DNA of 34,652 nt from a virus. This document shows positions 1 through 15,422 of the stretch, piece after piece (within the stretch, counting starts at the first letter, position 1; each line of letters begins with the position of its first letter). The notes under the pieces were generated by a model, which was not told where the DNA came from, did not search any database, and saw only the letters and a program-made list of their open reading frames with translations. Location of the stretch: IMG/VR virus record IMGVR_UViG_3300006621_000087, positions 11,047 to 45,698 of that record. One strand, given 5' to 3'. The position numbers were made by a program, and so were the translations under genes.

Positions 1-1977
1 ACATCAGCAAGTCCAGCAAACGCTACAATTATTGGAACTGTTCCTGTTGCAATAAACTCTGTTGCTAATTTAAGTGCATATTCCTCTGGTGGTATTGGAG
101 AAACACAAAAGCAAACAACTGATACTAATTACTGGCTTGCTAAAGTTGATTATCCTGCTACTGAATTTGATCCTATTGAAGCATCTTTACCGCTTTATTT
201 TGATGCTGGTACCGAAACAATTAAAGCCCATACACTCACATCTTGGACTGCTTTATTAGGTCCTTTCTTAAGATATTATCTTGGTGGTGGTGATCCAAAC
301 GTCGAAATTTCATACAACATTAATGGCAATGGTACAACCCAAGGCGCGATCTTTACAGATTCACGCCGTACTCCAACAGGTACAGGTTATACTACAAGAT
401 TTGTTAACGCAAACGATTATCGAACTCAGGAATTTCCTACTGGTACAGAAAGTACAGTAGCTGGAACTGAGAAAAGATTAAAAATAGTTTATGGAGCAAC
501 ACCTGTAATTACATTAAGTGGTACTTCAGCAAATCCAAACAGATATATAGCATACGGTCCATATGGAACTGAAACAATTGGTACAAATCAATATACTACT
601 AACGCTTCACCAGTAGGCCAAGGTAATTATTCTTGGTATTTTGCTCAAGGAAATATGGAAAGTTACGACAACAGCTGGAGATTACAAGTTAAGTATAATG
701 GTACTACAGTATTCGAGTCACCCGGCCAAGACGGATTTGCATATACTACTTCTGAGAAAAATCTTCTAGGAAGTGTTACTGATTTAGCCACCGGTACCGT
801 GTATAGCCGAGGCGCTCAGCGCGGCTCAAGCTTGATAGGTTATGCCGGTGAAGCAACAACATATGGCCCTGATGAAGTTGCTTCTGAATCATATGAAGTA
901 GCACAAGCTACTACGACTTGGAGCTTAATAAACGGATTTAAATTTACTGCAACTGGTAATGTTGAAAAAGATGGTAATGATTACGACGCAACTCGAATTG
1001 CGGGTGGAATTAATCCTGGTGAGTGGGCTAACCTTTCATCAGTAGGCGCAAGTCATTGGGTAAGATTTACTGATGATACTACAGCAACTAATACTGGTAC
1101 TGCAAGATCTCCAGCATCTGGTGATAACTATACTGCGTCTGGACCATCTCAATACAGTTGGGTAATTAATAGTAATAATATTACTGTTACTTGGAATGGT
1201 GATGTAATTTGGAATAAAAATTATTACCCCGCATCAGAAGCATCAGCAACTACAGCAATCTTTATTGGTGATAGACGATACGAAAGAGGTACTCTACAAA
1301 CGACGAATAATTATGGAGTATTCTACCAAGAAATTGGTGCAGACAGATATACTCCTAGCAATGGTACTTTTGGAGCATGGACTTCACTTGGCACAGATCA
1401 AACAGTAAACTGGAGTTCCTCTGATGCCGAAGGAGCATATGGATCTCGATTTACACAAATTAAAGCTGAAATTGCTACAGATTCAGGCGGTAGTAATATT
1501 GTAGCTACTGGTTATTATAGAGTTAATTGGCACGGGCAACAATTGATATTAGTAAATCTTGACGGTCAACTTACAGGCAATGCAAATAGTAACGGATTAA
1601 CCGGAAGCTGTAGTTGCCGGATTGATTGGAACGCTAGTACTGTTGGAGTAAATGCATTCGGTAATCCAGGCACGGGTTCTCCTTCTTATGACTGGATAGA
1701 TAATTCTGGAACTGCTTCAGATTATGAAGTAAGATTTACTTATTCTACTACGACGACTGGCGGCGGAAGTGTTTCTGGATTAGTAAACGGAGTTAGTGGA
1801 TTACCAGCATCTGGAACTTGGTATCCTGCAGAAAATACTCATCAAATACGTGTTGAAGATTCTGGAACCAGTCCTGATTCTTCATTCGCAAGTGGTTCTG
1901 TATCTATTAGAGAGCAATCATCTGGAACAATATTAGCAACACGAGCGTTTTCAATTTCAGCGAACAATAATCCATAA
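1..1977 (+). CDS. Fibre-like virion protein, 5' end missing
   Basis: The reading frame is open from the first base of the window to the TAA at 1975-1977, so about 658 residues of a longer protein are visible; the internal ATG at 655 is not the start. The protein is rich in Gly, Ser, Thr, Asn and aromatic residues, has almost no Cys, and looks beta-rich throughout. This is typical of phage tail-fibre or other virion surface proteins. The C-terminus is a Ser/Gly/Thr-rich beta segment ending in an Asn run and Pro. No enzymatic motif was seen. It is followed after 10 bases by a small coiled-coil gene and then by the modification-enzyme train, so it is a candidate substrate for those enzymes (inference). 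The fibre assignment rests on composition and context, not on a recognised domain. Confidence 0.7.
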   Translation, partial: TSASPANATIIGTVPVAINSVANLSAYSSGGIGETQKQTTDTNYWLAKVDYPATEFDPIEASLPLYFDAGTETIKAHTLTSWTALLGPFLRYYLGGGDPNVEISYNINGNGTTQGAIFTDSRRTPTGTGYTTRFVNANDYRTQEFPTGTESTVAGTEKRLKIVYGATPVITLSGTSANPNRYIAYGPYGTETIGTNQYTTNASPVGQGNYSWYFAQGNMESYDNSWRLQVKYNGTTVFESPGQDGFAYTTSEKNLLGSVTDLATGTVYSRGAQRGSSLIGYAGEATTYGPDEVASESYEVAQATTTWSLINGFKFTATGNVEKDGNDYDATRIAGGINPGEWANLSSVGASHWVRFTDDTTATNTGTARSPASGDNYTASGPSQYSWVINSNNITVTWNGDVIWNKNYYPASEASATTAIFIGDRRYERGTLQTTNNYGVFYQEIGADRYTPSNGTFGAWTSLGTDQTVNWSSSDAEGAYGSRFTQIKAEIATDSGGSNIVATGYYRVNWHGQQLILVNLDGQLTGNANSNGLTGSCSCRIDWNASTVGVNAFGNPGTGSPSYDWIDNSGTASDYEVRFTYSTTTTGGGSVSGLVNGVSGLPASGTWYPAENTHQIRVEDSGTSPDSSFASGSVSIREQSSGTILATRAFSISANNNP

Positions 1978-2582: not shown

Positions 2583-3668
2583 ATGTGGAACAAAAGCTAT
2601 GATCTTAGGTCATTAGTATTAGATGTTGAGTTAACTTCTTATTGTAATTTAAGATGCCCTCAATGTTCAAGAACAGATGAACATAATAACCTTGAAAAGA
2701 AATCTTGGTTGCCTCTTCATTCTGTATCTATAGATCAGTTTAAAAACTGGTTCCCTCCAAAAGTAATATGTACACTTAAACAAATACATTTTTCAGGAAC
2801 GTATGGCGATCCTGGCATGTGCAAAGACTTAGCTCAAATAATCGATTATATTATTGACGAAGGTACTTGTAAGGTATCCATTAACACTAATGGTTCTATG
2901 CGAGACTCAGATTATTGGTGGGATATTGCAGCAAAAGGTCAACGTCGATTAAAAATCATTCTTGATATTGACGGTATTAATCAGGAAATGCATGGATTCT
3001 ATAGACGTGGTTCTGATTTAGAAAAAGTATTAAATGTTGTAGAGGCTATTAGCACTACGCCTGTTGAGGTGAGTGTTCTTACTGTTTTATTTAAACATAA
3101 CGAAGATTACCTTGAACAAATTCGTGATATGGTAAAAGCACGCGCATCTAACTATATAACCTTTGATGAGGTTGAAGGTAACAATTTCCAAGGTGGTCCA
3201 ATATATAAATTTAAAGATGAAGATGGTAATGATCAACAATTAGAACAAGTAACACGTAAAGATAGAGAACAAGGACTTGTGCGAGAATCCAGGCGTGTAA
3301 GAGACCATCGCCATATTGAAATCGTAGAACTATATAATAAAATAGACTGTTTAGCAGCAAGTCAGCAAAATCTTAAAATACAATCATCTGGCCAAGTAAC
3401 ACCGTGTTGTTATATGTCAACTCCATTAGAAACTGCTTCATTATTTAATCCCAATAGCTTTAATCGCATGATTACTACGTATGGTGGTAAAGACGAAGAT
3501 ATTAATCCTGTTGCACAAGAATTTATCGACAATCCTGATTTATTTAATTTAGATCATACACCTCTATTAGATATTATTAATGGTGAATGGTTTACTAAAA
3601 CATTACCAGACTCTTGGCAAACAAAAAGCCCTTGCTTCGCATGTTCCAAAGTGTGTGGCGTAGTATGA
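2583..3668 (+). CDS. Radical SAM/SPASM-like enzyme 1
   Basis: This 361-residue protein carries the radical SAM CxxxCxxC signature at Cys21, Cys25 and Cys28, which should bind a [4Fe-4S] cluster and S-adenosylmethionine. A second set of cysteines lies in the C-terminal third (Cys256, the pair 275-276, and 351, 354, 358), as in SPASM/twitch domains that hold auxiliary Fe-S clusters. SPASM enzymes often modify peptides, but some act on small molecules. It ends in an ATGA overlap with a paralogous gene; both share the motifs HNEDY and a Trp-Trp segment after NTNGS. The reaction cannot be told from sequence. A role in modifying a virion protein or surface component is inference from the neighbourhood. 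Confidence 0.85.
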   Translation: MWNKSYDLRSLVLDVELTSYCNLRCPQCSRTDEHNNLEKKSWLPLHSVSIDQFKNWFPPKVICTLKQIHFSGTYGDPGMCKDLAQIIDYIIDEGTCKVSINTNGSMRDSDYWWDIAAKGQRRLKIILDIDGINQEMHGFYRRGSDLEKVLNVVEAISTTPVEVSVLTVLFKHNEDYLEQIRDMVKARASNYITFDEVEGNNFQGGPIYKFKDEDGNDQQLEQVTRKDREQGLVRESRRVRDHRHIEIVELYNKIDCLAASQQNLKIQSSGQVTPCCYMSTPLETASLFNPNSFNRMITTYGGKDEDINPVAQEFIDNPDLFNLDHTPLLDIINGEWFTKTLPDSWQTKSPCFACSKVCGVV

Positions 3669-4792
3669 AGTGGGATTCAAATCAACTTAAAGTATTTCTT
3701 GATATATCTACATATTGTAATGCTGGTTGTCCACAATGTCATAGAACTAATTCAAATGGACTTGGTAAAGAAGATTGGTTACCATTAATACAATGGTCTG
3801 TTGAAGAATTTAAAACTGCGTTTCCACCCAAGGTATTAGAAAATATTGATAGATTTAAATTCTGTGGTACTTGGGGTGACCCAATTATGAATAAAGATAT
3901 ATTAGGAATTTTTAAATATATCTCAGAATATGGCCCTTTATGTTTAATATCTGTTGATACAAATGGTAGTATTCGCAACGAAGATTTTTGGTGGGAACTC
4001 GGATGCATGTTTGGCACAAAACTTGCGGTAGTATTTGCTATTGATGGAATTGATCAAAAAATGCATGAAAGATATCGAAGGTTTACTGATCTCGATAAAG
4101 TACTCAGCAATATGCATATGCTTTCTCAAACAAATGCTATCGTACAATCACAAACAATTCTTTTTCAGCATAACGAAGATTATAAAGACGAGATACTTGA
4201 GTTAGTAAAAGAATATGGTTCTAAAAACCACGAGTTTGTAATTTCTGATAGATTTAATAATAATAATACTGAACATTTTGTAGATGATAATGGTGATGAC
4301 TTTACTTTAACAAGAGCTAATCAAAAATCATTACCAAAAGGTGTTATATCAGGAGCGTTTAAACGAGAAACTATCCCAGTTAAAATAGTTGAAACTATTA
4401 ATAAACCTGTTGAAGCGCCAAAAGTTAAAGTTGTAATGAAACCACAAAAAACATTAGATTATAATATTCAATGTAGATGGGCTTTACCAAGAAACGAAGT
4501 TGTAGTAAATCCAGATGGCCAAGTTCTTCCTTGTTGTTTTCATGCTAATCATATATACGGAAATTGGCCAAAGAATCAAATTCTTAACGATCCTGCATAT
4601 AAGTATTACATTGAAAATAAAAATGAGTTTAACGTATTTAAAACATCTATTATTGATATAATGAACTCTGAACATTTTGCAAAAACACTACCCGAAAGTA
4701 TAAAAGGAGATAATCCTAATCCAATCTGCGTTAAAAACTGCAGTAATAGAGTAAAAACTGAACATCAACTGAGAGAGCGACATGAAACCTGA
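3665..4792 (+). CDS. Radical SAM/SPASM-like enzyme 2
   Basis: A 375-residue paralogue of the preceding protein. The start was set at the ATG of the ATGA overlap at 3665; an upstream in-frame ATG at 3614 would extend 51 bases into the coding part of the neighbour. The radical SAM motif is Cys18, Cys22, Cys25. A C-terminal Cys pair in a GQVLPCCF context, with a further CxxxxC near the end, indicates a second Fe-S cluster site. Shared motifs with enzyme 1 (HNEDY, a FAKTLPES-like C-terminal segment) show they arose by tandem duplication. Sequence divergence is high, so the two may act on different sites. Substrate unknown. Confidence 0.85.
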   Translation: MKWDSNQLKVFLDISTYCNAGCPQCHRTNSNGLGKEDWLPLIQWSVEEFKTAFPPKVLENIDRFKFCGTWGDPIMNKDILGIFKYISEYGPLCLISVDTNGSIRNEDFWWELGCMFGTKLAVVFAIDGIDQKMHERYRRFTDLDKVLSNMHMLSQTNAIVQSQTILFQHNEDYKDEILELVKEYGSKNHEFVISDRFNNNNTEHFVDDNGDDFTLTRANQKSLPKGVISGAFKRETIPVKIVETINKPVEAPKVKVVMKPQKTLDYNIQCRWALPRNEVVVNPDGQVLPCCFHANHIYGNWPKNQILNDPAYKYYIENKNEFNVFKTSIIDIMNSEHFAKTLPESIKGDNPNPICVKNCSNRVKTEHQLRERHET

Positions 4793-5378
4793 TAATATTA
4801 TTTTTGTAAAGCATGGTAAAAAATACGATGCTGAATATGTGAATAGACTAAGAGATAAGTTAATGCCTTATTATCCAACGTCTCAATACTTATGTTATAC
4901 TGACGATCCTATTGGAGTCGAAATAGAATGCATTCCTTGTTTTGAGAAACCAACATTAAAGTATTGGTGGAATAAACTTGCAATGTTTAGTAAAGACTTT
5001 CCTGTTAAAGGTAAATGTTTATACTTTGATTTAGATATGGATATTGAAGATGACTTTACTGATTTTATTAAATGGGATGGATTAACTGTACTCGACGCAT
5101 ATTGGAAAACTGGTTTGTATATGGCTCCACACGCTTATGATGTACAAATCAATAGTTCAATTATTACTTGGACTGCTGGTGAACAAGATTATGTGTGGGA
5201 TAAGTTTATGTCGAATAAAGACTACTATATGAGAAAATATGCTGGTATAGATCGATTCTTAAAACACGAAGGTATTAAATTTAATACATTTGAAACTGGC
5301 ATCGTTGATAGCGTTGCAAATCCTGCTGACTTTAAAGCACCGGTTAAAATGTTTAATGGAATTCATTATGAGTTATAA
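4782..5378 (+). CDS. GT-A type glycosyltransferase-like protein
   Basis: This 198-residue protein overlaps the radical SAM gene by 11 bases. It has the layout of a small GT-A glycosyltransferase: a beta-strand followed by YFDLDMD (residues 81-87) holding a DxD metal and nucleotide-sugar binding motif, and an upstream WWNKLAMF segment typical of GT8-like or related phage transferases. It is shorter than most GT-A enzymes (about 250-300 residues), so the acceptor domain is reduced. It is the first of two adjacent transferases in the train, with a methyltransferase between. The sugar and acceptor are unknown; the virion fibre, host surface glycan or a lipid are all possible. Confidence 0.6.
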   Translation: MKPDNIIFVKHGKKYDAEYVNRLRDKLMPYYPTSQYLCYTDDPIGVEIECIPCFEKPTLKYWWNKLAMFSKDFPVKGKCLYFDLDMDIEDDFTDFIKWDGLTVLDAYWKTGLYMAPHAYDVQINSSIITWTAGEQDYVWDKFMSNKDYYMRKYAGIDRFLKHEGIKFNTFETGIVDSVANPADFKAPVKMFNGIHYEL

Positions 5379-6009
5379 AGAACAACTATATAAAAATGCG
5401 TTAAAGGAAATACAAAGGATCTATAAAGAATCTCAGTATAATCCTAACGTAGATTTGTATCGTAGCTTTGATATAATTAATTCAGTAAATGATAATCAAA
5501 TAGCAAGTAAAGAATGGCTTGCAGATAAAATCATTCCTTACATAGAAAAATCAAATCATAAAAGAGTTTGTTTACTCGGTGGTTGGTATGGTATATTAGG
5601 AATCATTCTTAAAACAAAATATCCTGACGTAGAATTAGCTTCAGTAGATTCAGATGAAGAATGTATTAGTATTGGTAAAAAACTATCAACAGGTATTTGT
5701 AAGCTTAATTTTAAACACGAAGATGCATTAGATTATATGCTTGATATCGATGGTAAGCATGATATAATCATTAATACAAGTTGTGAACATATGGAAAAGA
5801 ACGATATCATATTAATGAATAATTTAAAAGGAAAGAATACTATTGTATGTTTGCAATCTAATAATTACCATTCAATACAAAGTCATATTAATACATACGA
5901 TAGCCTTAATGAATTTGTTGAATCATTAAAGTTAAATCAAATATTTTATAAAGAAGAAATGGAAGCTCCTGGCGGAGAATATAATCGATATATGGTGATT
6001 GGTCGATGA
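5368..6009 (+). CDS. SAM-dependent methyltransferase-like protein
   Basis: The start is placed at ATG 5368, where the gene overlaps the preceding stop by 11 bases; an in-frame ATG at 5290 would overlap far more. The 213-residue product shows a class I methyltransferase pattern: a glycine-rich strand-loop at residues 68-78 (LLGGWYGILG), an acidic residue ending strand 2 (Asp94), and a motif IV-like INTSCEHM at 135-142. The Gly-rich loop is divergent. It ends in an ATGA overlap with the tandem glycosyltransferase. Substrate unknown; O-methylation of a sugar made by the neighbours is one possibility. Confidence 0.6.
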   Translation: MSYKEQLYKNALKEIQRIYKESQYNPNVDLYRSFDIINSVNDNQIASKEWLADKIIPYIEKSNHKRVCLLGGWYGILGIILKTKYPDVELASVDSDEECISIGKKLSTGICKLNFKHEDALDYMLDIDGKHDIIINTSCEHMEKNDIILMNNLKGKNTIVCLQSNNYHSIQSHINTYDSLNEFVESLKLNQIFYKEEMEAPGGEYNRYMVIGR

Positions 6010-7730
6010 AAAGAATTATTTTTACAGTGTATGATGACTTAAACGAAGTCGATGATACTTATAGTCTTGGTACACCCGCAGTAAAACTTGTTGATGAATA
6101 TCTCGATAGGCTTGTACAAAACAAAAAAGACTACGCCGAATCCATTGGAGTTGATTTTAAGTTTTATCATAATACTATGAAAGATTTCGATTGTGATGTA
6201 TCGTTAGAGTTTACAAAGGTTAATTTATATAAGCATCATATAATGTGTAAACTTGCAGAAGAATATGATGAAGTTCTATATGTTGATATGGATGTTGTAT
6301 TGAACACAAAAGAAAATATGTTTGATGAACATGATTTAGAAAAGAATGGTTATCATATTAAATATCAAGATAACTATATTCAAAGCACTCAGATAAAAGA
6401 AGTATTCTTTGCTGAGATCGGATTAAGATCTCCTACTTTAAAATATCATATTACAAAAGCAATGCTTGGTGGAGAAGATAACGAAGATATACATGTAATG
6501 AATACTGGTATTATGCTTGCAAATTCTAAATGGATACAGAAATTAGACTTTATTAACAATATGCAATTCGCGTTAGATAGATTAGAACAAATCAAAAGAA
6601 AGGCAATAAAAGAAAACGAACAAACATATATTAGTCTTTATTTTTATCCTAATAACGAAGCTTTGTTTGCGTGGATGGTTTTAGAATACGATATACCGTT
6701 TTACAATTTAGATGATGAATGGCATTGTATTGTCGATCATGATCCAAAAAAGTATAACTTTGATGATATGAAAGCTATTCATTTTATTAATAAGAAATTT
6801 AATTCGTTCTTTAAAGATAAAACTTATGCAATGTTTTCTATACATGTAGATATACCTGACGATAGACTTGATAATCCAAGAGGTCATTATAAATCAAGTG
6901 TACCTAAGTCTAAGCATGTTAAAGATCAATTATCAAAATATAAAAATGCTTTAATTGATAATCATAAAGAACAAGCAAATGCTATAAATGCAACATATAT
7001 TCATTATAGTAGAGATGAACAATATGAAGAGTTTTACAAAAGGTTTCCTCATTTATCAGAATATGATGTAATCAATTTATATAAAATATGGCTTCTTGAT
7101 AAACTTACAAAAGAATACGATGGTGTATTGTACGTAGATTTAGATTGTTATTTTACAAAGATAGGTATTTCTATATTTGATTACGTTCCTTGGGAAGTAG
7201 CATTCTGTTGTAATTACCAGACGGTCCACGATTTAGTTATAAACAGAACTAGCAATTACTTTGAAACTTATCAATACGACTTTCGAAGTCCACATGCAAA
7301 ATATTGGAACACACATGCTCTTTTAGCTGAAGAAGAAATAGAAGATAACTGCGATATCTATAATACTGGAGTTATGGTTGCAAGTCGAGAAGTAATGAAT
7401 AAACTTGATTACTTTTCTGATATAGACAAAATATTATCTACTATGAAAGAACTTAAAGAAGATGAGTATTCAATGTATCCACCTCAAATAAGAAAATCGT
7501 TTGGATATGATAATGAAACAATCACTGCTTATAAAGTAATAAAGAATAACGTGTTCTCATTTCAATTAAGAGATAATTGGCATTTTAAACATAATGAAAA
7601 CTATCCTGAGTCATATATTAAAGGATCACCAACTTATGTTCGTGAAAAGGCGCACATAAATGAGAATGTAAACAAAAGACAAATCATACACTTTATTTCG
7701 AAAAACTTTTCATTGGTTTTTGATAAATAG
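6006..7730 (+). CDS. Tandem-domain GT-A glycosyltransferase
   Basis: This 574-residue protein is an internal duplication of one glycosyltransferase-like unit. Repeat 1 (about residues 1-275) has YVDMD at 92-96 and MNTG at 165-168. Repeat 2 (about 325-574) has YVDLD at 376-380 and YNTG at 452-455, and both end in a segment with an HFI sequence. DxD should bind the metal and nucleotide sugar, and the NTG motif lies where such enzymes contact the sugar. Keeping both DxD motifs suggests both halves are active, possibly adding two sugars in turn (inference). It starts in an ATGA overlap with the methyltransferase. Acceptor unknown. Confidence 0.65.
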   Translation: MKRIIFTVYDDLNEVDDTYSLGTPAVKLVDEYLDRLVQNKKDYAESIGVDFKFYHNTMKDFDCDVSLEFTKVNLYKHHIMCKLAEEYDEVLYVDMDVVLNTKENMFDEHDLEKNGYHIKYQDNYIQSTQIKEVFFAEIGLRSPTLKYHITKAMLGGEDNEDIHVMNTGIMLANSKWIQKLDFINNMQFALDRLEQIKRKAIKENEQTYISLYFYPNNEALFAWMVLEYDIPFYNLDDEWHCIVDHDPKKYNFDDMKAIHFINKKFNSFFKDKTYAMFSIHVDIPDDRLDNPRGHYKSSVPKSKHVKDQLSKYKNALIDNHKEQANAINATYIHYSRDEQYEEFYKRFPHLSEYDVINLYKIWLLDKLTKEYDGVLYVDLDCYFTKIGISIFDYVPWEVAFCCNYQTVHDLVINRTSNYFETYQYDFRSPHAKYWNTHALLAEEEIEDNCDIYNTGVMVASREVMNKLDYFSDIDKILSTMKELKEDEYSMYPPQIRKSFGYDNETITAYKVIKNNVFSFQLRDNWHFKHNENYPESYIKGSPTYVREKAHINENVNKRQIIHFISKNFSLVFDK

Positions 7731-7761: not shown

Positions 7762-8319
7762 ATGACTCTATTATATTTTTATATGTTCTATTGGATCGTA
7801 TCCTTTCTAGGATTTACGATAGGATTTCATCGCGTAGTATCCCACAAATCTATAAACCTACATCCTGTTTTAGAGGCATTTGTTCTCTATGTTGGAGTAG
7901 TTGCTAGCGCGCTATCGCCGTTGGGTTGGGCAGGAATGCATCGTATGCACCATGCTTATGCTGACACTCCAAAGGATCCACATAGTCCAAAGTATATGAA
8001 ATGGTATCAAATACTTTTTTCATCTTATAGAGTAAAAACTATTCCACGAAAGTTTGTACGAGATTTATATAAAAATCCAAGAGTAATGTTTTTCCATAAG
8101 TATAGGTTCTATGTAATTGGTGTTACATATTGGTTAGCAGTTTTAATTAATCCAATGTACTTGTTATGGCTTGTACTTCTTTTACCTACATCATTTATAT
8201 TCTTTGGTCTTATTAATGTAACAGGCCACGACTCAAACGGTAATCCAGTAAATAGATGGTGGATAAATCTATTTGCGCCATTTGAAGGGAATCATACTAA
8301 ACATCATGAACCGAAATAG
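7762..8319 (+). CDS. Compact fatty acid desaturase
   Basis: This 185-residue hydrophobic protein contains all three histidine boxes of membrane di-iron acyl desaturases: His23 and His28 in HRVVSH, His60, 63 and 64 in HRMHH, and His178, 181 and 182 in NHTKHH. About four membrane segments are visible (residues 1-20, 36-56, 116-130, 133-153). The family resembles delta-9 acyl-CoA or acyl-lipid desaturases, which introduce a double bond using O2 and electrons from ferredoxin or cytochrome b5. Those enzymes normally run to 250-380 residues; here the protein stops three residues after the last box, so the usual C-terminal part is absent. It probably acts in the host inner membrane. A phage-encoded FdxA lies 10 kb downstream and could in principle supply electrons (inference). 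Confidence 0.85.
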   Translation: MTLLYFYMFYWIVSFLGFTIGFHRVVSHKSINLHPVLEAFVLYVGVVASALSPLGWAGMHRMHHAYADTPKDPHSPKYMKWYQILFSSYRVKTIPRKFVRDLYKNPRVMFFHKYRFYVIGVTYWLAVLINPMYLLWLVLLLPTSFIFFGLINVTGHDSNGNPVNRWWINLFAPFEGNHTKHHEPK

Positions 8320-8875
8320 CGATACACGCTGGGTAAAAATGAATTTTGATGTACCTTGCGATAAAATAGAAAAAGAATACGAATCAGTAAAAGAATCATT
8401 AGTTATTCATAGACCAGAAGATGGTCATAAAGATTGGTGTGCTATGACTTTATACGGTACGGGATCTGATAATACAAATAGCCACTGGGAATATGGTCGT
8501 AAATCTAAAAAGGATATTACTGAAATAGGAAAGCAATGTCCTGCAACTATGGAATTTGTACAATCATTACCATATGCTCGTATTGATGACGTAAGGTATT
8601 TAGTTATTAAACCTGGTGGTTATATTGCAGAACACGTCGATGTACCAGAGCATAATTGGCTTGATCCTCTTAATATATCGATTACATATCCAGAAGGTTC
8701 AAAGTTTGTACACGACGGAGAAGAAATACCTTATCATCCCGGTGGTGCATTTGTTTTAAATATACATTATGCTCATTCGGTACAGAATGAATCAGACAAA
8801 GATAGATTACATTTATTAATTCACGGCAAAAAGAAAAAAGAGTTTTGGAATTATGTTGAGAAACTCAAACTGTAA
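8306..8875 (+). CDS. 2OG-Fe(II) dioxygenase-fold protein 1 (aspartyl hydroxylase-like)
   Basis: The start at ATG 8306 gives a 14-base overlap with the desaturase and 189 residues; ATG 8273 and 8339 are in-frame alternatives. The C-terminal half has the double-stranded beta-helix pattern of aspartyl/asparaginyl hydroxylase-like 2OG-Fe(II) enzymes: His110-x-Asp112 after a PGG turn, distal His157 in a HYAHSVQN context, and Arg167 placed to bind 2-oxoglutarate. Such enzymes hydroxylate protein side chains, lipids or small molecules, using O2. It is the first of seven related proteins in the train. Confidence 0.75.
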   Translation: MNRNSDTRWVKMNFDVPCDKIEKEYESVKESLVIHRPEDGHKDWCAMTLYGTGSDNTNSHWEYGRKSKKDITEIGKQCPATMEFVQSLPYARIDDVRYLVIKPGGYIAEHVDVPEHNWLDPLNISITYPEGSKFVHDGEEIPYHPGGAFVLNIHYAHSVQNESDKDRLHLLIHGKKKKEFWNYVEKLKL

Positions 8876-9350
8876 AGTTATTACGTTCCTACCAGAAGAT
8901 CGTCCTGATATTCTAAGACGTTTACACGGTGCTGAATACAATCATATAAACTATGATACTATATCTTGGTTTGATTTTGATTGTATATCAATATTACAAG
9001 ATGGCGATGATATAGTCGGGTTTAGTTCTATATGGCATAGAGAAGAACATTATGAAGAAGGTGAAGTAAGAATATTAAATCGTTATTGGGAAGATGACGT
9101 TTTAAGAAGAGGTGGAAGAGAATTAGCTCGAGCTCATATACTTACTATGGTATCTGAACAATTAAAGTTTGCAAAAGAACTTGGATACACAAAAGCTTTT
9201 ATAAGTCGAGAAAAGAACCCTCGAGTTTTTAAAGAACTAATAAATAAAATTGCCAAAGGTACAAATACTGAATGGCATATACATGATAAGAGAGTAGCTG
9301 TCTGTGAAGGAGACGGTTGCTTACAATTTAAAGGATATACCGAATTATGA
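8853..9350 (+). CDS. GNAT-like acetyltransferase, tentative
   Basis: This 165-residue protein overlaps the gene before by 23 bases and the next by an ATGA. The middle (residues about 50-130) reads like a GNAT fold: a VGFSSIW strand, a loop with RGGREL, a long helix (MVSEQLKFAKELG), then a strand KAFISRE leading into a helix, the order seen around the acetyl-CoA site. The classic QxxGxG/A P-loop is only weakly present. An acyl or amino-acyl transfer role in the cluster is plausible but unproven. Confidence 0.5.
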   Translation: MLRNSNCKVITFLPEDRPDILRRLHGAEYNHINYDTISWFDFDCISILQDGDDIVGFSSIWHREEHYEEGEVRILNRYWEDDVLRRGGRELARAHILTMVSEQLKFAKELGYTKAFISREKNPRVFKELINKIAKGTNTEWHIHDKRVAVCEGDGCLQFKGYTEL

Positions 9351-10150
9351 AAACTCGTTATGAATTACCACCATTCTTAAAATTAGATATGCAATTTGAT
9401 GTCGCAAAAATTATTGAAGACGTGAGAAACATGCCACCTGAAACTGATGATTTAAAACAAAAGGATGGTTATGGAGATTTAGTTGGCGGCAAAACTGCAA
9501 AGCTACAAAAAGCATTTGGTTTAAAGTTTGATACAATTGAAGATGCATATCAATTTCTACAAGATAACGATGTAAAAGAATCTGAGTTTAGAAAAGGCTT
9601 GGGTGGTAAGCGTATGGCTTGGGACTTTAGAAATTATGTAAAACCATTTGAAGATTATATTGTTAAAGATGGTAAAGGTAAATTTGAAGTTAATGGATCG
9701 CCTTATAAACAAATCGCTTTAACAAAATATAATCCCGCTGAAGAAGATCGCGTATACGATAAAAAGATTCCTAAGAGTAGACTTGATGAACGTCATTATA
9801 ATCTCGTAAAAGATTGGGTTAAAGGTACTTATTTAGAAGAAATCCTTAAACAGTTTAAAGGTGAAGTCACTCGTGCACGGATTGCTATTATGGATCCTGG
9901 TGCATTTGTTGCAGAACATATTGATTATAATACTGATTATTCAATTCGTTTCCATATTCCTATTACAACAAATGATGATTGTGGATTTTACTGTGTTAAT
10001 CAAGAAGGCGAAAAGGTATATCAAACAATGGAACCTGGATCTTGTTGGTTTTTAAATCAAGGTATGAGACACTCTGCTTGGAATAAAGGAACTACCACAA
10101 GATCTCATATTATCATATCTGTTAATGGACAGGATGATTTAGATGTATAA
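9347..10150 (+). CDS. 2OG-Fe(II) dioxygenase-fold protein 2
   Basis: This is one of the longest members of the dioxygenase group (267 residues). The iron triad is His191-x-Asp193 following a PGAFVAEHID turn, and distal His242 in RHSAWNKG, with Arg252 as the likely 2-oxoglutarate anchor. The N-terminal 170 residues are charged, mostly helical, and have no recognised domain; they may bind the substrate. It is joined to its neighbours by an ATGA overlap upstream and an 8-base overlap downstream. The pattern is closest to aspartyl/asparaginyl beta-hydroxylase-like enzymes. The target is unknown. Confidence 0.75.
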   Translation: MKTRYELPPFLKLDMQFDVAKIIEDVRNMPPETDDLKQKDGYGDLVGGKTAKLQKAFGLKFDTIEDAYQFLQDNDVKESEFRKGLGGKRMAWDFRNYVKPFEDYIVKDGKGKFEVNGSPYKQIALTKYNPAEEDRVYDKKIPKSRLDERHYNLVKDWVKGTYLEEILKQFKGEVTRARIAIMDPGAFVAEHIDYNTDYSIRFHIPITTNDDCGFYCVNQEGEKVYQTMEPGSCWFLNQGMRHSAWNKGTTTRSHIIISVNGQDDLDV

Positions 10151-10652
10151 GAAATGGCGTAATGATTCTTTTATAGAAACAGATTTTAAAGTTGATCGTG
10201 AATTTTGGACTCCGTATTTTACCGGTGAATGGCAAGACAGTAATCAATTATATTCAGAATATGTAAGTGATGCAACGGGTGGTAAAGAAATGAATAAGTT
10301 TTTTGTTCAAGAGATTCATAATTTTGATCGACCGCTCTTAAAGTTAATTAAAAAGATATGGAATGAATTTGGTATTAGACCAAGAGAGTTTCGTTGTAAC
10401 TTTTTTAGAGTATTAGAAGGCGGTGAGCTGCCTGTACATGTTGATGTAAAAAGTGAATGCTCAGTATTAATACCAGTAACAGAGAATACAGGCGAATTAT
10501 ATGTAGAATCCGGGGCTCATCGGGATTCAATTGTATATGATTCACTTACAGTTTTAAACACAAAGAAACCACATGGTGTACAATCACCATCAAAGGAAAG
10601 GATAGTTTTTCATATGGGCATCCACGATACTAAATTCGGAGACTTAAAATGA
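10143..10652 (+). CDS. 2OG-Fe(II) dioxygenase-fold protein 3
   Basis: A 169-residue protein with the iron-binding pattern His99-x-Asp101 (in LPVHVDVK), distal His144 (in KKPHGVQS) and Arg153. The short spacing between the HxD and the distal His and the GELY strand fit a minimal double-stranded beta helix. The N-terminus is rich in Trp and Phe. Both ends overlap neighbouring genes (8 bases and ATGA), so translation is probably coupled. It differs strongly from the other dioxygenases of the train, so the set is old or recruited from several sources. Confidence 0.7.
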   Translation: MYKKWRNDSFIETDFKVDREFWTPYFTGEWQDSNQLYSEYVSDATGGKEMNKFFVQEIHNFDRPLLKLIKKIWNEFGIRPREFRCNFFRVLEGGELPVHVDVKSECSVLIPVTENTGELYVESGAHRDSIVYDSLTVLNTKKPHGVQSPSKERIVFHMGIHDTKFGDLK

Positions 10653-11110
10653 TTAACAGATTAAATTTACCAGCATTAACATTACCATCACCTGCTCATA
10701 ATGCCTTAGAAATTGAATACGATAGTTCAATTATTAATTATACAGCTTGGAATGTTACAGACGAAACGGCTACTTTGGTGGCTGGTCAAGTATTGCAAGA
10801 GATTTTAGATAACGCGCAATTGCGATATCAAGAATCAGATAATACTAAAAACGACAGAATTTTTACAACACAATCACGTTGGAGAATTCTATATATGATT
10901 GATCCGGCAGGTACAGTATTGCATGCACATGATGCAGACGATAACATTACATCTTCTATTACAGCAGTAGCAGGAGAATGGTACCTTATTGATTCACACG
11001 TTAAAAATTCTAATTCTGGAATTACCGGTACACAAACTGCTTTAACAATCAATCATAGCGCTGATTTCAATAGTACGGAGCAGGCTTGGATAGATGGCAA
11101 AATACTTTAA
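10649..11110 (+). CDS. Degenerate dioxygenase-fold or cupin-like protein
   Basis: This 153-residue protein lies in the dioxygenase train with an ATGA overlap upstream and a 17-base overlap downstream. Its beta-strand layout echoes the neighbours: a PAGTVLHAHDAD turn at residues 86-97 and a distal His117 in the DSHVKNS segment. However, the HxD triad is not cleanly present: His92, His94, Asp95 and Asp97 are shifted relative to the family spacing. It may be a non-catalytic partner, bind iron differently, or be an unrelated beta protein. Confidence 0.5.
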   Translation: MINRLNLPALTLPSPAHNALEIEYDSSIINYTAWNVTDETATLVAGQVLQEILDNAQLRYQESDNTKNDRIFTTQSRWRILYMIDPAGTVLHAHDADDNITSSITAVAGEWYLIDSHVKNSNSGITGTQTALTINHSADFNSTEQAWIDGKIL

Positions 11111-11696
11111 ATATGACGTAAGAAAATACTTTGAGCAATATGTTGATTTTGAAAATAAATCAGTATTAGACTTTGGTTGTAATCACGGTAACTTTGTAAG
11201 GTATCAATCTCACCACGATTATACTGGTGTTGATATTAATAAAGCTATTATAGAACAAAACAAAGAACAATATCCAGGTTGCGAATGGATTCATTATAAT
11301 GGATACAATAAAATGTACAATCCCAATGGTACAGAAGAATTTGTACTTGATAGGGATTATGATGTGGCCGTATTGTTTTCAGTTATTACTCATATGGAAA
11401 AAGATGAAGCAATAGAAACTATACAAAAATTAAAAGAACGTTGTAAAACATTATATGTTACATTCTATTCTCACACTAATCAACAAGCTTTAAATAACAT
11501 ATGTCGATATCGGAAATTAGGAATGCCTAATTGGAGCAAGATAACAGAATCAGACGTATATTATTTTAAACCCGAAGAATACCTTTGGTCTTTTTATGAC
11601 GATGACTTTGCTGCAAAAACATTTGGTGGTAAAGTATATGATACAATCTTTAGTCCTAGAACATTAATGGGAATGCAAAAATGTTTAATAATATAA
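11094..11696 (+). CDS. Class I SAM-dependent methyltransferase
   Basis: This 200-residue protein has a clean class I methyltransferase N-terminal half: motif I VLDFGCNHGNF at residues 24-34 for binding S-adenosylmethionine, the acidic motif II GVDINK at 45-50, and a motif IV-like FSVITHM at 95-101, where the HM signature is typical of small-molecule methyltransferases. The remaining 80 residues would form the substrate side. It overlaps both neighbours by about 16 bases. Substrate unknown; it is the second methyltransferase in the train and not closely similar to the one at 5368. Confidence 0.75.
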   Translation: MAKYFKYDVRKYFEQYVDFENKSVLDFGCNHGNFVRYQSHHDYTGVDINKAIIEQNKEQYPGCEWIHYNGYNKMYNPNGTEEFVLDRDYDVAVLFSVITHMEKDEAIETIQKLKERCKTLYVTFYSHTNQQALNNICRYRKLGMPNWSKITESDVYYFKPEEYLWSFYDDDFAAKTFGGKVYDTIFSPRTLMGMQKCLII

Positions 11697-12151
11697 GCCA
11701 TTATAATCTTCCAAACTTTTTAACTCATCGTCAGCATGTACATTTCCTAATTGTTGCAAAGAACTTACATGAAGATCATTGGACTCCATATAAAACATCT
11801 TCTGGTAGACCGGATGGATTCTCATATTATGATTTAAAAACTACTTTTATTGGTAAGAACGTTTACCTTCTTAAAATGAATCCTCATAATCGTATTGATT
11901 GGCATACCGATAGTAGTAAAAGAACTATAGCATTAACCTATCCATTATCAGAACAATATGCACCATGCCAATTTGAAAATAATGAATCAACATCTAAGCC
12001 GGCTTTCTTAAATACACAACAACGACATGCAGTATTTAATAATGCCCAAACAAGATATAGCCTAAACATATCATTCGAAGAGAATATGGATGATTGTATA
12101 GCATTATTCGAAAGCTTGAACGAATATGAATTTAAAACACCTCAACTTTAA
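11681..12151 (+). CDS. 2OG-Fe(II) dioxygenase-fold protein 4
   Basis: A 156-residue protein with His75-x-Asp77 (in DWHTDSSKR), a distal His116 (in QQRHAVFNN) and Arg125 in a TRYSLNISF strand, the usual order for iron and 2-oxoglutarate binding in the aspartyl/prolyl-hydroxylase-like fold. The protein is little more than the catalytic core. It overlaps the methyltransferase upstream by 16 bases and the next dioxygenase by 26 bases. Substrate unknown. Confidence 0.7.
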   Translation: MFNNISHYNLPNFLTHRQHVHFLIVAKNLHEDHWTPYKTSSGRPDGFSYYDLKTTFIGKNVYLLKMNPHNRIDWHTDSSKRTIALTYPLSEQYAPCQFENNESTSKPAFLNTQQRHAVFNNAQTRYSLNISFEENMDDCIALFESLNEYEFKTPQL

Positions 12152-12608
12152 AATAGATAAACCTCGTTTTAGAAGAATAGCTGAAAAGTGGAAAAGTGCT
12201 GGTAAGTATTACCAATGGAAACAATTCGAACAAGAAGATAAATGGTTCCAAACATATCCACCTCAAGGAGAAGATGACGCAATATCTGAAATAGAACATG
12301 CACTTGGCATTCATATATTTCAGAATAAGCCTCGTTTCTATTGGCTTAAACCAAACTCTAATCTTCCAATCCATTTTGATGAAGATAATGTAACATCAAT
12401 ACAAATTAATCTAATGGATCAAACGCCTGAAATAGGAATCGAAGGCGTGGGTAATGTTCCGTATGAAGCGATGATAATAAATAACGGATATATAAGACAC
12501 TGGGTAGATCCAGTACCTTATGAGCGTTTACAATTAAAATTTGTAATGCGTGAATCATACGATCAAATAATGAAGGTAATACCTAATGCCATATTACAAA
12601 ACAGATAG
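12126..12608 (+). CDS. 2OG-Fe(II) dioxygenase-fold protein 5
   Basis: A 160-residue core-type dioxygenase: His83-x-Asp85 (in LPIHFDED), distal His125 (in YIRHWVDP) and Arg134 (in ERLQLKFV). The N-terminal 45 residues are basic and aromatic. It overlaps genes on both sides by over 20 bases, and no ribosome site of its own is evident, which suggests translational coupling. Layout and size match protein 4, so the two may be an old tandem pair. Confidence 0.7.
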   Translation: MNLKHLNFKIDKPRFRRIAEKWKSAGKYYQWKQFEQEDKWFQTYPPQGEDDAISEIEHALGIHIFQNKPRFYWLKPNSNLPIHFDEDNVTSIQINLMDQTPEIGIEGVGNVPYEAMIINNGYIRHWVDPVPYERLQLKFVMRESYDQIMKVIPNAILQNR

Positions 12609-13458
12609 ACCATTTGCCGATCGTAAACTTCGGAATATGGATATTATTCATAATCCAAATACATCATTGTTTGAAGATCAATACGAATCGTCATATTGTA
12701 TTCCAGACTTTATAACAGATAGAGAACGATTAGAACTACTTGAAGTTTGGAACGATAAATTTGATACTATAGGTGAGATCATAAACGATCATATTTACCG
12801 TATTACATATCCAATGCTTATTAAAGAAATATCTGATATTGTAAGGCCAAAAATCTATGAACATTTTGGAGATGATATAGTATTCTACTCAGATATAGCT
12901 GGTAATGATCCTATGAGTGTTGGAGATCAGATGTTTAAAGCTATACAACCATATGGATTACACACTGACTCAGTAACTCACCTTGATGGGTATAGACCAT
13001 ATAAGGATATTATCATACCATTGCTTATAGATGGCCCAGGAACATATGTTACATTCAACCAAAGATATCGTGGGCATGCCACTATGTTTATGAATGGAAG
13101 AGATATAACCTCATATGCTAACTATCATAATATAGTCAAAATACAGTCGTATAAAGAATATGGTGTAGAAAATATAGATGAAACAAATCCAGATCATAAT
13201 AGACTCGAAATGCTTATGCCTAAACATATACCTTTGTCTGTATATGATGGGCTTTCTATTGAAGCAATATTCTTATGGCAACATTGTAATGCCATCGTAC
13301 AAGACACGTCAGTGCTTCATGCACCCACAGAGTTCAAAGGAAGTAAGATAGGATTAACCCTACATCTTATGAAACGTGACGAGAGCTACAAAAATAGCAT
13401 CTCTGGCCACTATACTCCGTGGTCTCCGCACACAAAACCAATAAAAAAATTAAAATAA
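12586..13458 (+). CDS. 2OG-Fe(II) dioxygenase-fold protein 6
   Basis: This 290-residue protein ends the modification train. The iron triad is His126-x-Asp128 (in YGLHTDSVTH) and distal His245 (in SVLHAPTEFKG), with Lys251, Lys254 or a later basic residue placed for 2-oxoglutarate. The spacing of about 117 residues between HxD and the distal His and the long insert resemble phytanoyl-CoA or prolyl hydroxylase-like enzymes more than the short neighbours. A 114-base gap with an early promoter follows, so this is the last gene of its transcription unit by position. Substrate unknown. Confidence 0.7.
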   Translation: MPYYKTDRPFADRKLRNMDIIHNPNTSLFEDQYESSYCIPDFITDRERLELLEVWNDKFDTIGEIINDHIYRITYPMLIKEISDIVRPKIYEHFGDDIVFYSDIAGNDPMSVGDQMFKAIQPYGLHTDSVTHLDGYRPYKDIIIPLLIDGPGTYVTFNQRYRGHATMFMNGRDITSYANYHNIVKIQSYKEYGVENIDETNPDHNRLEMLMPKHIPLSVYDGLSIEAIFLWQHCNAIVQDTSVLHAPTEFKGSKIGLTLHLMKRDESYKNSISGHYTPWSPHTKPIKKLK

Positions 13459-13514: not shown

Positions 13515-13543
13515 TTGACATTTGCTTTAAGATGATGTATAAT
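13515..13543 (+). promoter_or_regulatory. Consensus sigma70-like promoter P1
   Basis: TTGACA at 13515-13520, a 17-base spacer, and TATAAT at 13538-13543, a perfect match to the bacterial housekeeping consensus. It lies in the gap between the dioxygenase train and the small-gene block and points at the gene at 13573, whose AAGGA ribosome site is at 13561. Confidence 0.9.
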
Positions 13544-13572
13544 ATACATATAAATTAATAAAGGAATCAAAT

Positions 13573-13944
13573 ATGAAATACGCAATCTACCAAATTCAAC
13601 TCTCGAATGAACAAGTTGACCTAATCAATGCTGAAGGTCACCACGCTGTACCATCACACATCGCTAAGATGGATATGTCAATGGACTTCAGAGGCGAAAA
13701 GATTGCAGATCAAGCTTCAGCTGCTTGGGATAAAGGTTACTATACTCACGTTTGTAATATCACAGCTGAGAACCTTAACCAAGTCTTTGAGATTGGTAAT
13801 ATCGGTCCAGAAGAGAATATCGAAAGGCTTTCAAAAATGCATTCGATCTCAGTAGCTGATGTAATCATTGACGAAACTGGTGAAATGGTTGTTGTAGCTT
13901 CAGTTGGTTTCAAAATGTTTGGTAATTTAAAGGAGGTAGCGTAA
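13573..13944 (+). CDS. Small phage protein, unknown function
   Basis: A 123-residue acidic protein, first gene behind promoter P1, with AAGGA 8 bases before the ATG. It is mixed alpha/beta and contains a segment IERLSKMHSISVADVI (residues 83-98) followed by a hydrophobic strand pair. I recall this arrangement from small proteins in other phages and plasmids without known function. It ends by sharing one base with the next start. Probably an early host-takeover or accessory protein; this is inference from promoter and position. Confidence 0.75.
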   Translation: MKYAIYQIQLSNEQVDLINAEGHHAVPSHIAKMDMSMDFRGEKIADQASAAWDKGYYTHVCNITAENLNQVFEIGNIGPEENIERLSKMHSISVADVIIDETGEMVVVASVGFKMFGNLKEVA

Positions 13945-14162
13945 TGAACTTAGCATATTGCGACGCATTCGCGTCATTCATCAGAAACGCTCTGGTAACT
14001 ATTAAGCCAGAGGATAAAGAGTTTCCTGTAATCAACGGTTTAGTAGCTGGTACTAAGTACGATCTGCACCCTACAGAGGGTTACATGTTATCCACTAAGA
14101 AAACCATTGATGTTACAGATGCCAATGGTAAAGCTTACCGTATCTCAATAGAGGAGTTATAA
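13944..14162 (+). CDS. Small hypothetical protein (72 aa)
   Basis: A 72-residue protein starting in a TAATG overlap with the gene before and preceded by a strong AAAGGAGG ribosome site. It has an N-terminal helix and then short strands; no motif recognised. It is the second gene of the P1 operon. Confidence 0.7.
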   Translation: MNLAYCDAFASFIRNALVTIKPEDKEFPVINGLVAGTKYDLHPTEGYMLSTKKTIDVTDANGKAYRISIEEL

Positions 14163-14163
14163 G

Positions 14164-14346
14164 ATGCAAGTTAAAGGTGCAACTACCGTAATTAAGAAGC
14201 AGTGTGAATTCCTAGGATTATCTCCTGCTGAAGTCATCAAGTTTGCTAAAGAGTCTCCATTGGCTCAGCCGGCAAAGGTTCTTGAAGCAGTTAAGGTTCT
14301 CGAAAGAGAATACCGCGATGCTCAAAACTTTTTTTCAAATAAGTGA
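14164..14346 (+). CDS. Small hypothetical protein (60 aa)
   Basis: A 60-residue helical protein, third in the P1 operon, with a GAGGAG ribosome site at the end of the preceding gene. Residues 13-28 resemble a helix-turn-helix-like helix pair (FLGLSPAEVIKFAKES), too weak to claim DNA binding. Function unknown. Confidence 0.65.
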   Translation: MQVKGATTVIKKQCEFLGLSPAEVIKFAKESPLAQPAKVLEAVKVLEREYRDAQNFFSNK

Positions 14347-14355
14347 AAAAACTTG

Positions 14356-14384
14356 TTGACATTACCGTCCGACTATGATATAAT
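14356..14384 (+). promoter_or_regulatory. Consensus sigma70-like promoter P2
   Basis: TTGACA at 14356-14361, a 17-base spacer, TATAAT at 14379-14384, directly after the stop of the 60-residue gene and 31 bases before the ATG at 14415. Confidence 0.9.
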
Positions 14385-14414
14385 AGTCTTATCAAAACAA
14401 CAAAAGGTTAAATT

Positions 14415-14675
14415 ATGAAATCAGCTTACGATCCAACTCCTACAGAAATCAAAGTGGCTAGCATTGGCCGTAAATTAATGGACATCTCTGTTAATATGCC
14501 AATGAAAGGTTTGAAAGATGAGGAGATCGCAAGATCAAATCGAATGAGTTCTTTTGGCGATGCCTTAACTCGTTTTGGATCAACCTTTGGTCCACGTAAT
14601 CTTAATGAAGTACTTAAACTTTCTGGAGTTTCTGTCGAAGAAGCCGAAGAATTCATGCAACTTGGAACTCAATAA
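14415..14675 (+). CDS. Small hypothetical protein (86 aa)
   Basis: An 86-residue protein behind promoter P2. It is mainly helical. The C-terminal half (about residues 46-82: FGDALTRFGSTFG then LNEVLKLSGVSVEEAEEFM) looks like a three-helix unit that could be a small DNA-binding or interaction domain, but no family is recognised. The next gene starts 12 bases later. Confidence 0.7.
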   Translation: MKSAYDPTPTEIKVASIGRKLMDISVNMPMKGLKDEEIARSNRMSSFGDALTRFGSTFGPRNLNEVLKLSGVSVEEAEEFMQLGTQ

Positions 14676-14687
14676 GAGGATTAATCA

Positions 14688-15128
14688 ATGAGTAATCGAA
14701 TTAACACAGAAGCTAACACCGTAGAGCGCAATGCTGAACTACAAGATATGTGCTTTTCTGATTTCTTTAAAGATGTAAACGGATTCCGTCCGCGTGGTTC
14801 AACCTGGGATTACTACCTAGGTCTTTCGCCTGAAGCTCTTGAAAAAGCGCTTGATCGTATGGATGCTGAAATGGAAGAACAGCTTATAGAGTCTAAGCGT
14901 CAAGAAAAAGAAGACGTTGCGGCTATGCAAGCTGAAATCCAAAATGCGATCGATCTTGGCGCTAAAACTGAGACTGATGCTTTGCGTTGGATAACTCAGA
15001 ACGAGGACTTCTATTCTGGCCAGTGTGTCGAAAGCTTTGTTTGGAGACGTGGTATTCTTTTCACTCCCTATGGAAAAGAGCTCGTCGAAAAAATCCTTGA
15101 TGTTGCTCAGTTCAAGGAGTTTGCTTGA
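14688..15128 (+). CDS. Hypothetical protein (146 aa), helical
   Basis: A 146-residue acidic protein. The middle (about residues 50-85) is a long charged helix rich in Glu, Lys and Gln, likely coiled coil. A Trp/Phe-rich C-terminal part follows. The ribosome site AGAGGA lies before the ATG. Second gene behind P2. No function recognised. Confidence 0.7.
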   Translation: MSNRINTEANTVERNAELQDMCFSDFFKDVNGFRPRGSTWDYYLGLSPEALEKALDRMDAEMEEQLIESKRQEKEDVAAMQAEIQNAIDLGAKTETDALRWITQNEDFYSGQCVESFVWRRGILFTPYGKELVEKILDVAQFKEFA

Positions 15129-15379: not shown

Positions 15380-15393
15380 AATCAAATTAACCG

Positions 15394-15422
15394 TTGACAT
15401 TTCCTTTTAAATGATGTATAAT
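15394..15422 (+). promoter_or_regulatory. Consensus sigma70-like promoter P3
   Basis: TTGACA at 15394-15399, a 17-base spacer, TATAAT at 15417-15422. The stretch from the -35 box to the ribosome site is strikingly similar to that of P1, including ATGATGTATAAT and a downstream ATATAAATT...GATAAGGAA leader. Confidence 0.9.

Follow-up and report, generated by a model that had tools for sequence, protein, structure and literature searches.

Marine phages with many 2-oxoglutarate (2OG) oxygenase genes are already known. Eight 2OG types have been reported from pelagiphages, and in the HTVC023P-type phages, which are podoviruses, eight non-orthologous 2OG families are co-located in one phage group, near but not adjacent to each other and with ferrochelatase as a partner (PMC9599517). 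Of the eight 2OG ORFs in the T4-like cyanophage Nanhaivirus ms29, four have consecutive numbers (ORF 213-216); the subfamilies named are 2OG-FeII_Oxy_3 and _5 (PMC10436341). For pelagimyophages, one account describes, in general terms, a host recognition cluster, a variable island that surrounds the tail fibres and includes glycosyltransferase and radical SAM genes, and lists an aspartyl/asparaginyl hydroxylase as a core gene (PMC7029224). The first-pass annotation of the DNA studied here noted that single phage 2OG enzymes are common, which undersells a literature in which multi-2OG marine phages are on record (PMC9599517, PMC10436341).

Here we report that seven of nine consecutive genes (A to I, 8306-13458, plus strand) in an uncultured marine T4-like myovirus have, or in the case of D, G and H are predicted to have, the 2OG-oxygenase fold, six of them apparently competent and one (E) degenerate, the other two being B (GNAT-like) and F (methyltransferase) (Table 1). 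The window, meaning the whole stretch of DNA analysed, is 34,652 nt long. Overlaps of 4-26 nt occur at all nine junctions from a desaturase-like gene through I, and these genes are one translationally coupled block within the tail-fibre/host-recognition region. Since many-2OG marine phages are already known, this conserved desaturase-GNAT-methyltransferase operon is a variant on a known type. It resembles the Nanhaivirus ms29 case in placing multi-copy 2OG genes in a T4-like marine phage, but A and C belong to PF05118, D, E, G, H and I fall in no Pfam or PHROG family, and the genes share a conserved operon with a desaturase, a GNAT and a methyltransferase; the last two features of the HTVC023P-type arrangement, spacing and ferrochelatase partner, likewise differ from the adjacent genes and desaturase and GNAT partners seen here. 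The pelagimyophage island is similar in kind, and the present operon and families are absent from the available part of its general description. A literature search for a phage desaturase together with 2OG genes found none.

Table 1. Features of the block and its surroundings, in window coordinates
Feature	Position	Strand	Length	Evidence
Tail-fibre-like protein (824 aa), C-terminal part	1..1977	+		ORF map of record
Radical SAM protein 1	2583..3668	+		PHROG E 2.6e-24; NCBIfam radical SAM families
Radical SAM protein 2	3641..4792	+		PHROG E 3.8e-23; NCBIfam
Glycosyltransferase-like protein	4782..5378	+		phrog_1962 E 1.6e-9; cluster recurs in 13 contigs
Methyltransferase-like protein	5356..6009	+		weak PF05175 E 0.0012; cluster recurs in 14 contigs
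Large two-halved protein, upstream in same run	6006..7730	+		halves alike by tblastn
Fatty-acid-desaturase-like membrane di-iron protein	7762..8319	+		PF00487 E 7.8e-9; DesA family 1.1e-13
A, 2OG oxygenase, aspartyl/asparaginyl beta-hydroxylase-like (PF05118)	8306..8875	+	189 aa	Pfam E 7.5e-15
B, GNAT-like	8853..9350	+	165 aa	hhalign to Mosig_00073 E 6.6e-4, probability 27%
C, 2OG oxygenase (PF05118)	9347..10150	+	267 aa	Pfam E 2.6e-13
D, predicted 2OG oxygenase, family without Pfam or PHROG match	10143..10652	+	169 aa	HMM-HMM links to H, G
E, degenerate 2OG-oxygenase fold	10649..11110	+	153 aa	AlphaFold pLDDT 91.1
F, SAM-dependent methyltransferase	11094..11696	+	200 aa	Pfam Methyltransf_23 E 8.1e-10
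G, predicted 2OG oxygenase	11681..12151	+	156 aa	HMM-HMM links to A, D
H, predicted D-related 2OG oxygenase	12126..12608	+	160 aa	HMM-HMM to D, probability 82-90%
I, 2OG oxygenase, family without library match	12586..13458	+	290 aa	AlphaFold model
Perfect early-type promoter TTGACA-17-TATAAT	13515..13543	+		57 nt past end of I

The surroundings are those of a T4-like host-recognition cluster, a variable island among tail-fibre genes, and the window also holds gp44/gp45-type and baseplate hub genes. At the head of the co-oriented block stands an 824-aa protein without a Pfam match, whose gene begins 498 bases before the window; it shares its family with the gene labelled “tail24” in relatives and is called tail-fibre-like from its position. 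The large two-halved protein, which matches no Pfam or PHROG family, is named for the tandem glycosyltransferase domains that it probably carries. The desaturase-like gene overlaps A by 14 nt, and its three His boxes are conserved in 25 rows of the alignment. Gene B has no Pfam match and weakly resembles an annotated N-acetyltransferase of phage Mosig, itself also ahead of a C homolog. Thymidylate synthase and a C5 methylase are encoded elsewhere in the window, and long collagen-like GxQ repeats, with much glutamine and little proline or lysine, are present in the same record.

A hallmark of the 2OG superfamily is a basic residue, some 9-11 positions beyond the distal His of the iron triad, that binds the carboxylate of 2OG. 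The six HxD...H triads do lie where they had been placed, at 110/112/157 (A), 191/193/242 (C), 99/101/144 (D), 75/77/116 (G), 83/85/125 (H) and 126/128/245 (I). We dismissed the HxD/E...H motif alone as evidence because a loose HxD/E...H...R/K pattern occurs in 24 of the 95 ORFs of the record, a quarter of them. The three ligands are, however, invariant in all aligned orthologs of every family (31 rows for A, 23 for C, 29 for D, 13 for G, 12 for H and 31 for I), and so, bar one gap, is a basic residue 9-10 positions past the distal His, the putative 2OG binder (R167 in A, R252 in C, R153 in D, R125 in G, R134 in H and K254 in I).

Genes A and C score 55.6 and 50.5 bits against PF05118, for which the gathering score is 22.6. 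The closest curated subfamilies of A, which shares PF05118 with them, are the acyl-lipid 2-hydroxylases OlsC and LpxO, both far under the NCBIfam equivalog cut-offs (21.1 of 450 bits and 17.6 of 500 bits). Gene C, among the slowest-evolving members of the set (mean column identity 72%), matches the PDB profiles 7v4f and 4p7w with E about 1e-8, the enzymes matched being a nucleoside-antibiotic beta-hydroxylase (7v4f) and L-proline cis-4-hydroxylase. For D, G and H the 2OG fold is predicted by profile comparison with the triads in register; single members of these families gave nothing significant in Pfam scans, PF05118 did not match D, G, H or I, and none of A, D, G, H and I had a significant hit among PDB profiles. 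Membrane segments were predicted in none of A, C, D, G, H and I.

Structure prediction gave I a confident double-stranded beta-helix, as the 2OG fold requires (pLDDT 91.7, pTM 0.90), and its best structural matches listed are 2OG enzymes at Z 12-13 (up to 13.0), with the tailoring enzymes SnoN, SnoK, GriE and EvdO2 among its neighbours. The “degenerate relative” mentioned in the first-pass annotation is E, whose model matches proline 3-hydroxylase (Z 11.3) and AspH (Z 10.8) in fold; in alignment with distant homologs its distal His is replaced by N120 and the Arg by Q129, leaving the triad and the 2OG-binding Arg incomplete. Ortholog invariance, Pfam matches, HMM-HMM links and the model of I together bear out the original proposal of six divergent 2OG-fold genes in one run, and the strong expansion that it described was if anything understated, given up to eight 2OG genes in the cassettes of relatives.

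Both C and D are found on 36 deduplicated IMG/VR contigs, many of them short, and the core desaturase-A-B-C-D recurs across this set. Gene A is present in 33 of the 36, B in 32 and the desaturase in 29, the order A-C-D holds in 32, and tail-type genes occur in 21; in relatives tail-fibre PHROGs often adjoin the cassette. The core keeps its order, strand and overlaps over diverged contigs, nearly all of the corresponding junctions overlapping in relatives too. Outside it content varies, with TauD, A', I', G, H, E and F present in some relatives and missing from others, and TauD, nitroreductase-like and PP-loop-like genes appear as additions. Among isolate phages D and I found no match and A a single marginal one, while a scan of bacterial genomes for C gave one identical copy, probably of phage origin, in a metagenome bin assigned to Rhodobacteraceae, plus a single short fragment, and no cellular version of the cassette. 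Pelagibacter phage Mosig EXVC030M (MT647606) has a C homolog (HMM E 2e-22) after a GNAT, together with a desaturase homolog (35% identity), a methyltransferase, a second AspH and TauD beside tail fibres, but in another order and with an aminotransferase, an FMN reductase and a peroxiredoxin; a profile search of that cassette found no homologs of D, G, H or I.

HMM-HMM comparison with the triads aligned links A-C, A-G, D-G and D-H, and gave no link for the negative controls B, F and the desaturase. The lineages (A/C/G-like, D/H and I) are deeply separated, and only D-H, A-A' and I-I', which share roughly 23-31% identity, resemble old duplicates. We rejected recent tandem duplication because between-family identity is ~20-31% where detectable and many pairs have no detectable similarity. 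Because the similarities between families appear ancient by these comparisons, the cassette is best described as an old mosaic, not a tandem-duplication burst.

To judge from promoter motifs, late transcription of the block is most likely. In five relatives (L002, L006, L076, L079 and L080) the T4-type late motif TATAAATA precedes the start of the desaturase gene by 14-35 nt; in this record TATAAATA stands ahead of the block at record position 10283, the nearest late promoter being ~8.5 kb upstream of the desaturase gene and not directly before it. Early-type promoter sites with at most one mismatch number 10 against 0.9 expected, every one at or after 13515, which marks the upstream limit of the early region, and none lies inside the block.

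As uncultured relatives keep the same core set, the cassette probably encodes a genuine pathway of chemical tailoring. That its enzymes oxidise one putative shared target step by step is plausible, since the core genes stay together in a fixed order and overlap. Our preference, held tentatively and with less than even confidence, is for late-expressed tailoring of an envelope lipid or glycolipid in the infected cell. With O2 and 2-oxoglutarate as co-substrates, each oxygenase would hydroxylate, or oxidise in some other way, its own site on a single surface-related product, alongside desaturation, acyl or acetyl transfer, methylation and upstream glycosyl transfer; the likeliest product would be a lipid or glycolipid of the envelope that bears acyl or amino-acyl groups, and its alteration may change recognition or block superinfection. 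The proximity of A to OlsC and LpxO, the conserved core and the gene neighbourhood are consistent with this proposal, and against it count the weakness of that likeness, the lack of predicted membrane segments in all six intact oxygenases, the closer resemblance of C to nucleoside-antibiotic-pathway and free-proline enzymes than to lipid enzymes, and the ~8.5 kb that separate the desaturase gene from the nearest late promoter in this genome.

The oxygenases might instead target virion proteins of the phage itself, such as its tail fibres, hydroxylating Asp, Asn, Pro or similar residues that the glycosyltransferases, methyltransferase and GNAT would modify further, so that adsorption or stability is tuned. 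We consider this rather unlikely, even with the cassette among tail-fibre genes in relatives, an apparent late promoter, AspH- and prolyl-hydroxylase-like folds, a tail-type protein first in the same block and collagen-like repeats in the record, since the conserved desaturase, a di-iron enzyme integral to the membrane, fits lipids better, and bacterial PF05118 enzymes of known function (LpxO, OlsC, L-proline cis-4-hydroxylase) act mostly on small molecules or lipids. The collagen-like repeats, considered as a target, are poor in the usual hydroxylation sites.

It is unlikely that the genes are a loose collection of unrelated auxiliary functions in a hypervariable island, acting on separate substrates and forming no joint pathway. 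Gene content does vary outside the core, and in pelagiphages several non-orthologous 2OG genes lie close together without being adjacent (PMC9599517); the desaturase-A-B-C-D order, strand and overlaps, kept over diverged contigs, argue against it. Less probable again is a pathway to a diffusible amino-acid- or nucleoside-derived compound tailored by 2OG enzymes as in antibiotic clusters: the matches of C, the structural neighbours of I and the genes added in relatives point that way, but no scaffold-building enzyme was recognised in the core, and in a superfamily this large structural neighbours give no indication of substrate. TET/JBP-like oxidation of DNA or RNA bases followed by glycosylation is highly improbable, for although such systems combine 2OG oxygenases with glycosyltransferases and the window encodes both thymidylate synthase and a C5 methylase, the family of A and C, PF05118, is not a nucleic-acid oxidising one, and the early, replication-side region does not include the cassette, which has links to late promoters.

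Marine T4-like phages are rich in 2OG genes of unexplained purpose. The fixed-order core (desaturase, AspH-like A and C, GNAT-like B, and D) and its apparent late promoters turn that puzzle into a testable pathway, and five families of modelled or predicted 2OG fold (D, E, G, H and I) without significant match in the libraries searched are added. It is possible, if somewhat doubtful, that these phages run a late multi-oxygenase pathway, drawing on those five families, that would build a new, heavily hydroxylated surface product (a lipid, a glycan or a tail-fibre residue) serving host recognition or the exclusion of competitors.

The window spans 11047-45698 in an IMG/VR virus record of 100 kb. 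Its genes include ones for T4-type replication and tail proteins (clamp, clamp loader, baseplate hub), and its clamp loader shares 50-55% identity with those of T4-like marine and other phages. It also contains a block of ten genes, each overlapping its neighbour by 4-26 nt, in which a fatty-acid-desaturase-like gene is followed by nine genes, here A to I. The expansion of 2OG-Fe(II) oxygenases described in the first-pass annotation extends further than claimed, to seven of the nine consecutive genes A-I (D, G and H counted by profile alignment only) and to as many as eight 2OG genes in relatives.

Positions of the gene block and other features (window coordinates unless a locus or the record is named)
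Feature	Position	Strand	Assignment
Gene block	7762-13458	+	ten overlapping genes, in the order below
Desaturase	7762-8319	+	fatty-acid-desaturase-like
A		+	2OG oxygenase (putative)
B	8853-9350	+	GNAT-like
C		+	2OG oxygenase (putative)
D		+	2OG oxygenase (putative)
E	10649-11110	+	degenerate 2OG fold
F	11094-11696	+	SAM-dependent methyltransferase
G		+	2OG oxygenase (putative)
H		+	2OG oxygenase (putative)
I		+	2OG oxygenase (putative)
Sigma-70 consensus sites	13515-29623	+	ten sites
Inositol gene	18789-20084		myo-inositol-1-phosphate synthase-like (PF01658; PHROG of unknown function)
Methylase	22829-24040		C5-cytosine DNA methylase
E homolog	L055 9777-10289		distant homolog
E homolog	L080 9254-9799		distant homolog
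X14	L023 4690-5322		2OG-like family
Repeat region	record about 80-84 kb (L032 16035 to L033 about 770)		GxQ repeats, tail-type protein

All six HxD...H triads proposed earlier lie exactly at the residues first assigned to them. This pattern alone is not enough, because a loose version of it matches 24 of the record's 95 ORFs; it is the homologs that settle the point, and they argue that the six triads are more than chance. Searches of IMG/VR with C, I and D retrieved related loci, and 12 to 31 orthologs were aligned for each of the six families. Neither the two His nor the Asp varies in any of these alignments, and the same holds for a basic residue 9-10 positions past the distal His, the residue that usually binds the 2OG carboxylate. 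A and C exceed the Pfam gathering threshold for PF05118, and HMM-HMM comparison, with triads in register, links A to C (E 3e-8), D to H (E 1e-5 to 2e-6), A to G (E about 1e-4) and D to G (1e-4 to 3e-4), with no such links for F, B or the desaturase. The fold of D, G and H is predicted from profile alignment only; neither Pfam nor PHROGs gives D, E, G, H or I a significant match.

Gene I (290 aa) shows no sequence link to other members of the run and none to the libraries. AlphaFold models it with confidence (pLDDT 91.7, pTM 0.90), and the structural matches are 2OG oxygenases all down the list (Z up to 13.0); structure prediction, the check proposed at first pass, supports the fold for I. Together with the invariant ligands, the PF05118 matches and the HMM-HMM links, this model bears out the six oxygenase genes. 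E (153 aa) lacks the HxD motif and keeps the first His (H92), with Asn120 and Gln129 replacing the distal His and Arg of distant homologs; for E, too, AlphaFold gives a confident model (pLDDT 91.1), with structural matches to proline 3-hydroxylase (Z 11.3) and AspH (Z 10.8). E is therefore a degenerate relative, as had been suspected. The distant homologs in L055 and L080 retain both His and the Arg, but their HxD motif is replaced by HxS or HxG, a two-His arrangement resembling AspH or halogenase sites; these proteins may be active enzymes of unusual chemistry.

Whether the genes were tandem duplicates or separate gains had been left as a question, and the answer appears to be mixed. Only D-H (about 23% identity) and A and I with their second copies in relatives (27-28% and 25-31%) look like duplicates, and both copies of such pairs co-occur in diverged relatives; the remaining members are separate lineages. 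The families diverged from one another very long ago, and the expansion is best described as accretion to which some old duplications contributed. Relatives have a TauD-type 2OG gene (PF02668, E 1e-29) inserted either between C and D or 5' of A. A further 2OG-like family, X14, with conserved PTHID and PH, is tied to A by profile comparison and lies 5' or 3' of the core (desaturase-A-B-C-D) in about ten contigs.

After removal of redundant contigs, 36 contained both C and D. A was found in 33/36, B in 32/36, the desaturase in 29/36, I in 24/36 and TauD in 12/36, all minima since several contigs are short; the order A-C-D was retained in 32, and overlapping junctions were seen again. Outside the core, relatives carry tail-fibre genes (PHROG tail fibre; L-shaped tail-fibre assembly) and glycosyltransferase-like, methyltransferase-like, nitroreductase-like and radical SAM genes. 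A looser form of the module lies next to the tail fibres of the isolate Pelagibacter phage Mosig, with a desaturase, two AspH genes (one the C homolog), TauD, a methyltransferase and a GNAT directly 5' of the C homolog, matching B here, to which it is weakly linked (E 6.6e-4). A Rhodobacteraceae metagenome-bin contig (FZLS01000007.1) encodes C at 100% identity; this is probably DNA of the same phage that was binned with a candidate host, and it hints weakly at the host. Elsewhere the record holds long collagen-like GxQ repeats within a 1592-aa tail-type protein.

Ten TTGACA-17-TATAAT promoters (eight perfect, two near-perfect) occur in the window against 0.9 expected, all on the replication side and 3' of the 2OG operon, and mark the early-gene region sharply; none occurs between record 8994 and 24561, a stretch that spans the block. 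Outside the replication region, the T4-type late promoter TATAAATA precedes ORFs far more often than expected (observed 7, expected 0.16). TATAAATA stands at record 10283, 5' of the block, whose first gene encodes an 824-aa tail-type protein, and in five relatives TATAAATA lies 14-35 nt 5' of the desaturase start. Late expression of the block would be the natural inference. The early region also holds the C5-cytosine DNA methylase, and two genes of related unknown PHROGs follow the inositol gene.

By family membership, each intact oxygenase is predicted to bind Fe(II) and 2-oxoglutarate and to oxidise its substrate with O2, by hydroxylation or in another way. Of the stepwise oxidation of one target proposed at first pass, we keep a single product on which all would act, inferred because the core genes are linked; the class of that product is uncertain. 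The desaturase and the distant nearness of A to OlsC/LpxO point to an envelope acyl-lipid or aminolipid, the nearness of C to a nucleoside-antibiotic beta-hydroxylase and L-proline cis-4-hydroxylase suggests an amino-acid moiety, and the setting amid late tail genes hints at a function on the surface of either cell or virion. We tentatively favour tailoring of an envelope lipid or glycolipid; modification of virion proteins, close behind, is a somewhat weaker candidate. A loose collection of unrelated enzymes, set against the linked core, is doubtful, a small-molecule pathway is rather unlikely, and nucleic-acid modification very improbable.

Marine phages with many 2OG genes are already known: HTVC023P-like pelagiphages have eight types, close but not adjacent (PMC9599517), and cyanophage ms29 has eight 2OG ORFs, four consecutively numbered (PMC10436341). 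Pelagimyophages are known to have host-recognition islands that contain glycosyltransferases and radical SAM genes, and an aspartyl/asparaginyl hydroxylase belongs to their core genes (PMC7029224). What appears to be new is a conserved operon with a core, an apparent late promoter and five library-unmatched families (D, E, G, H and I).
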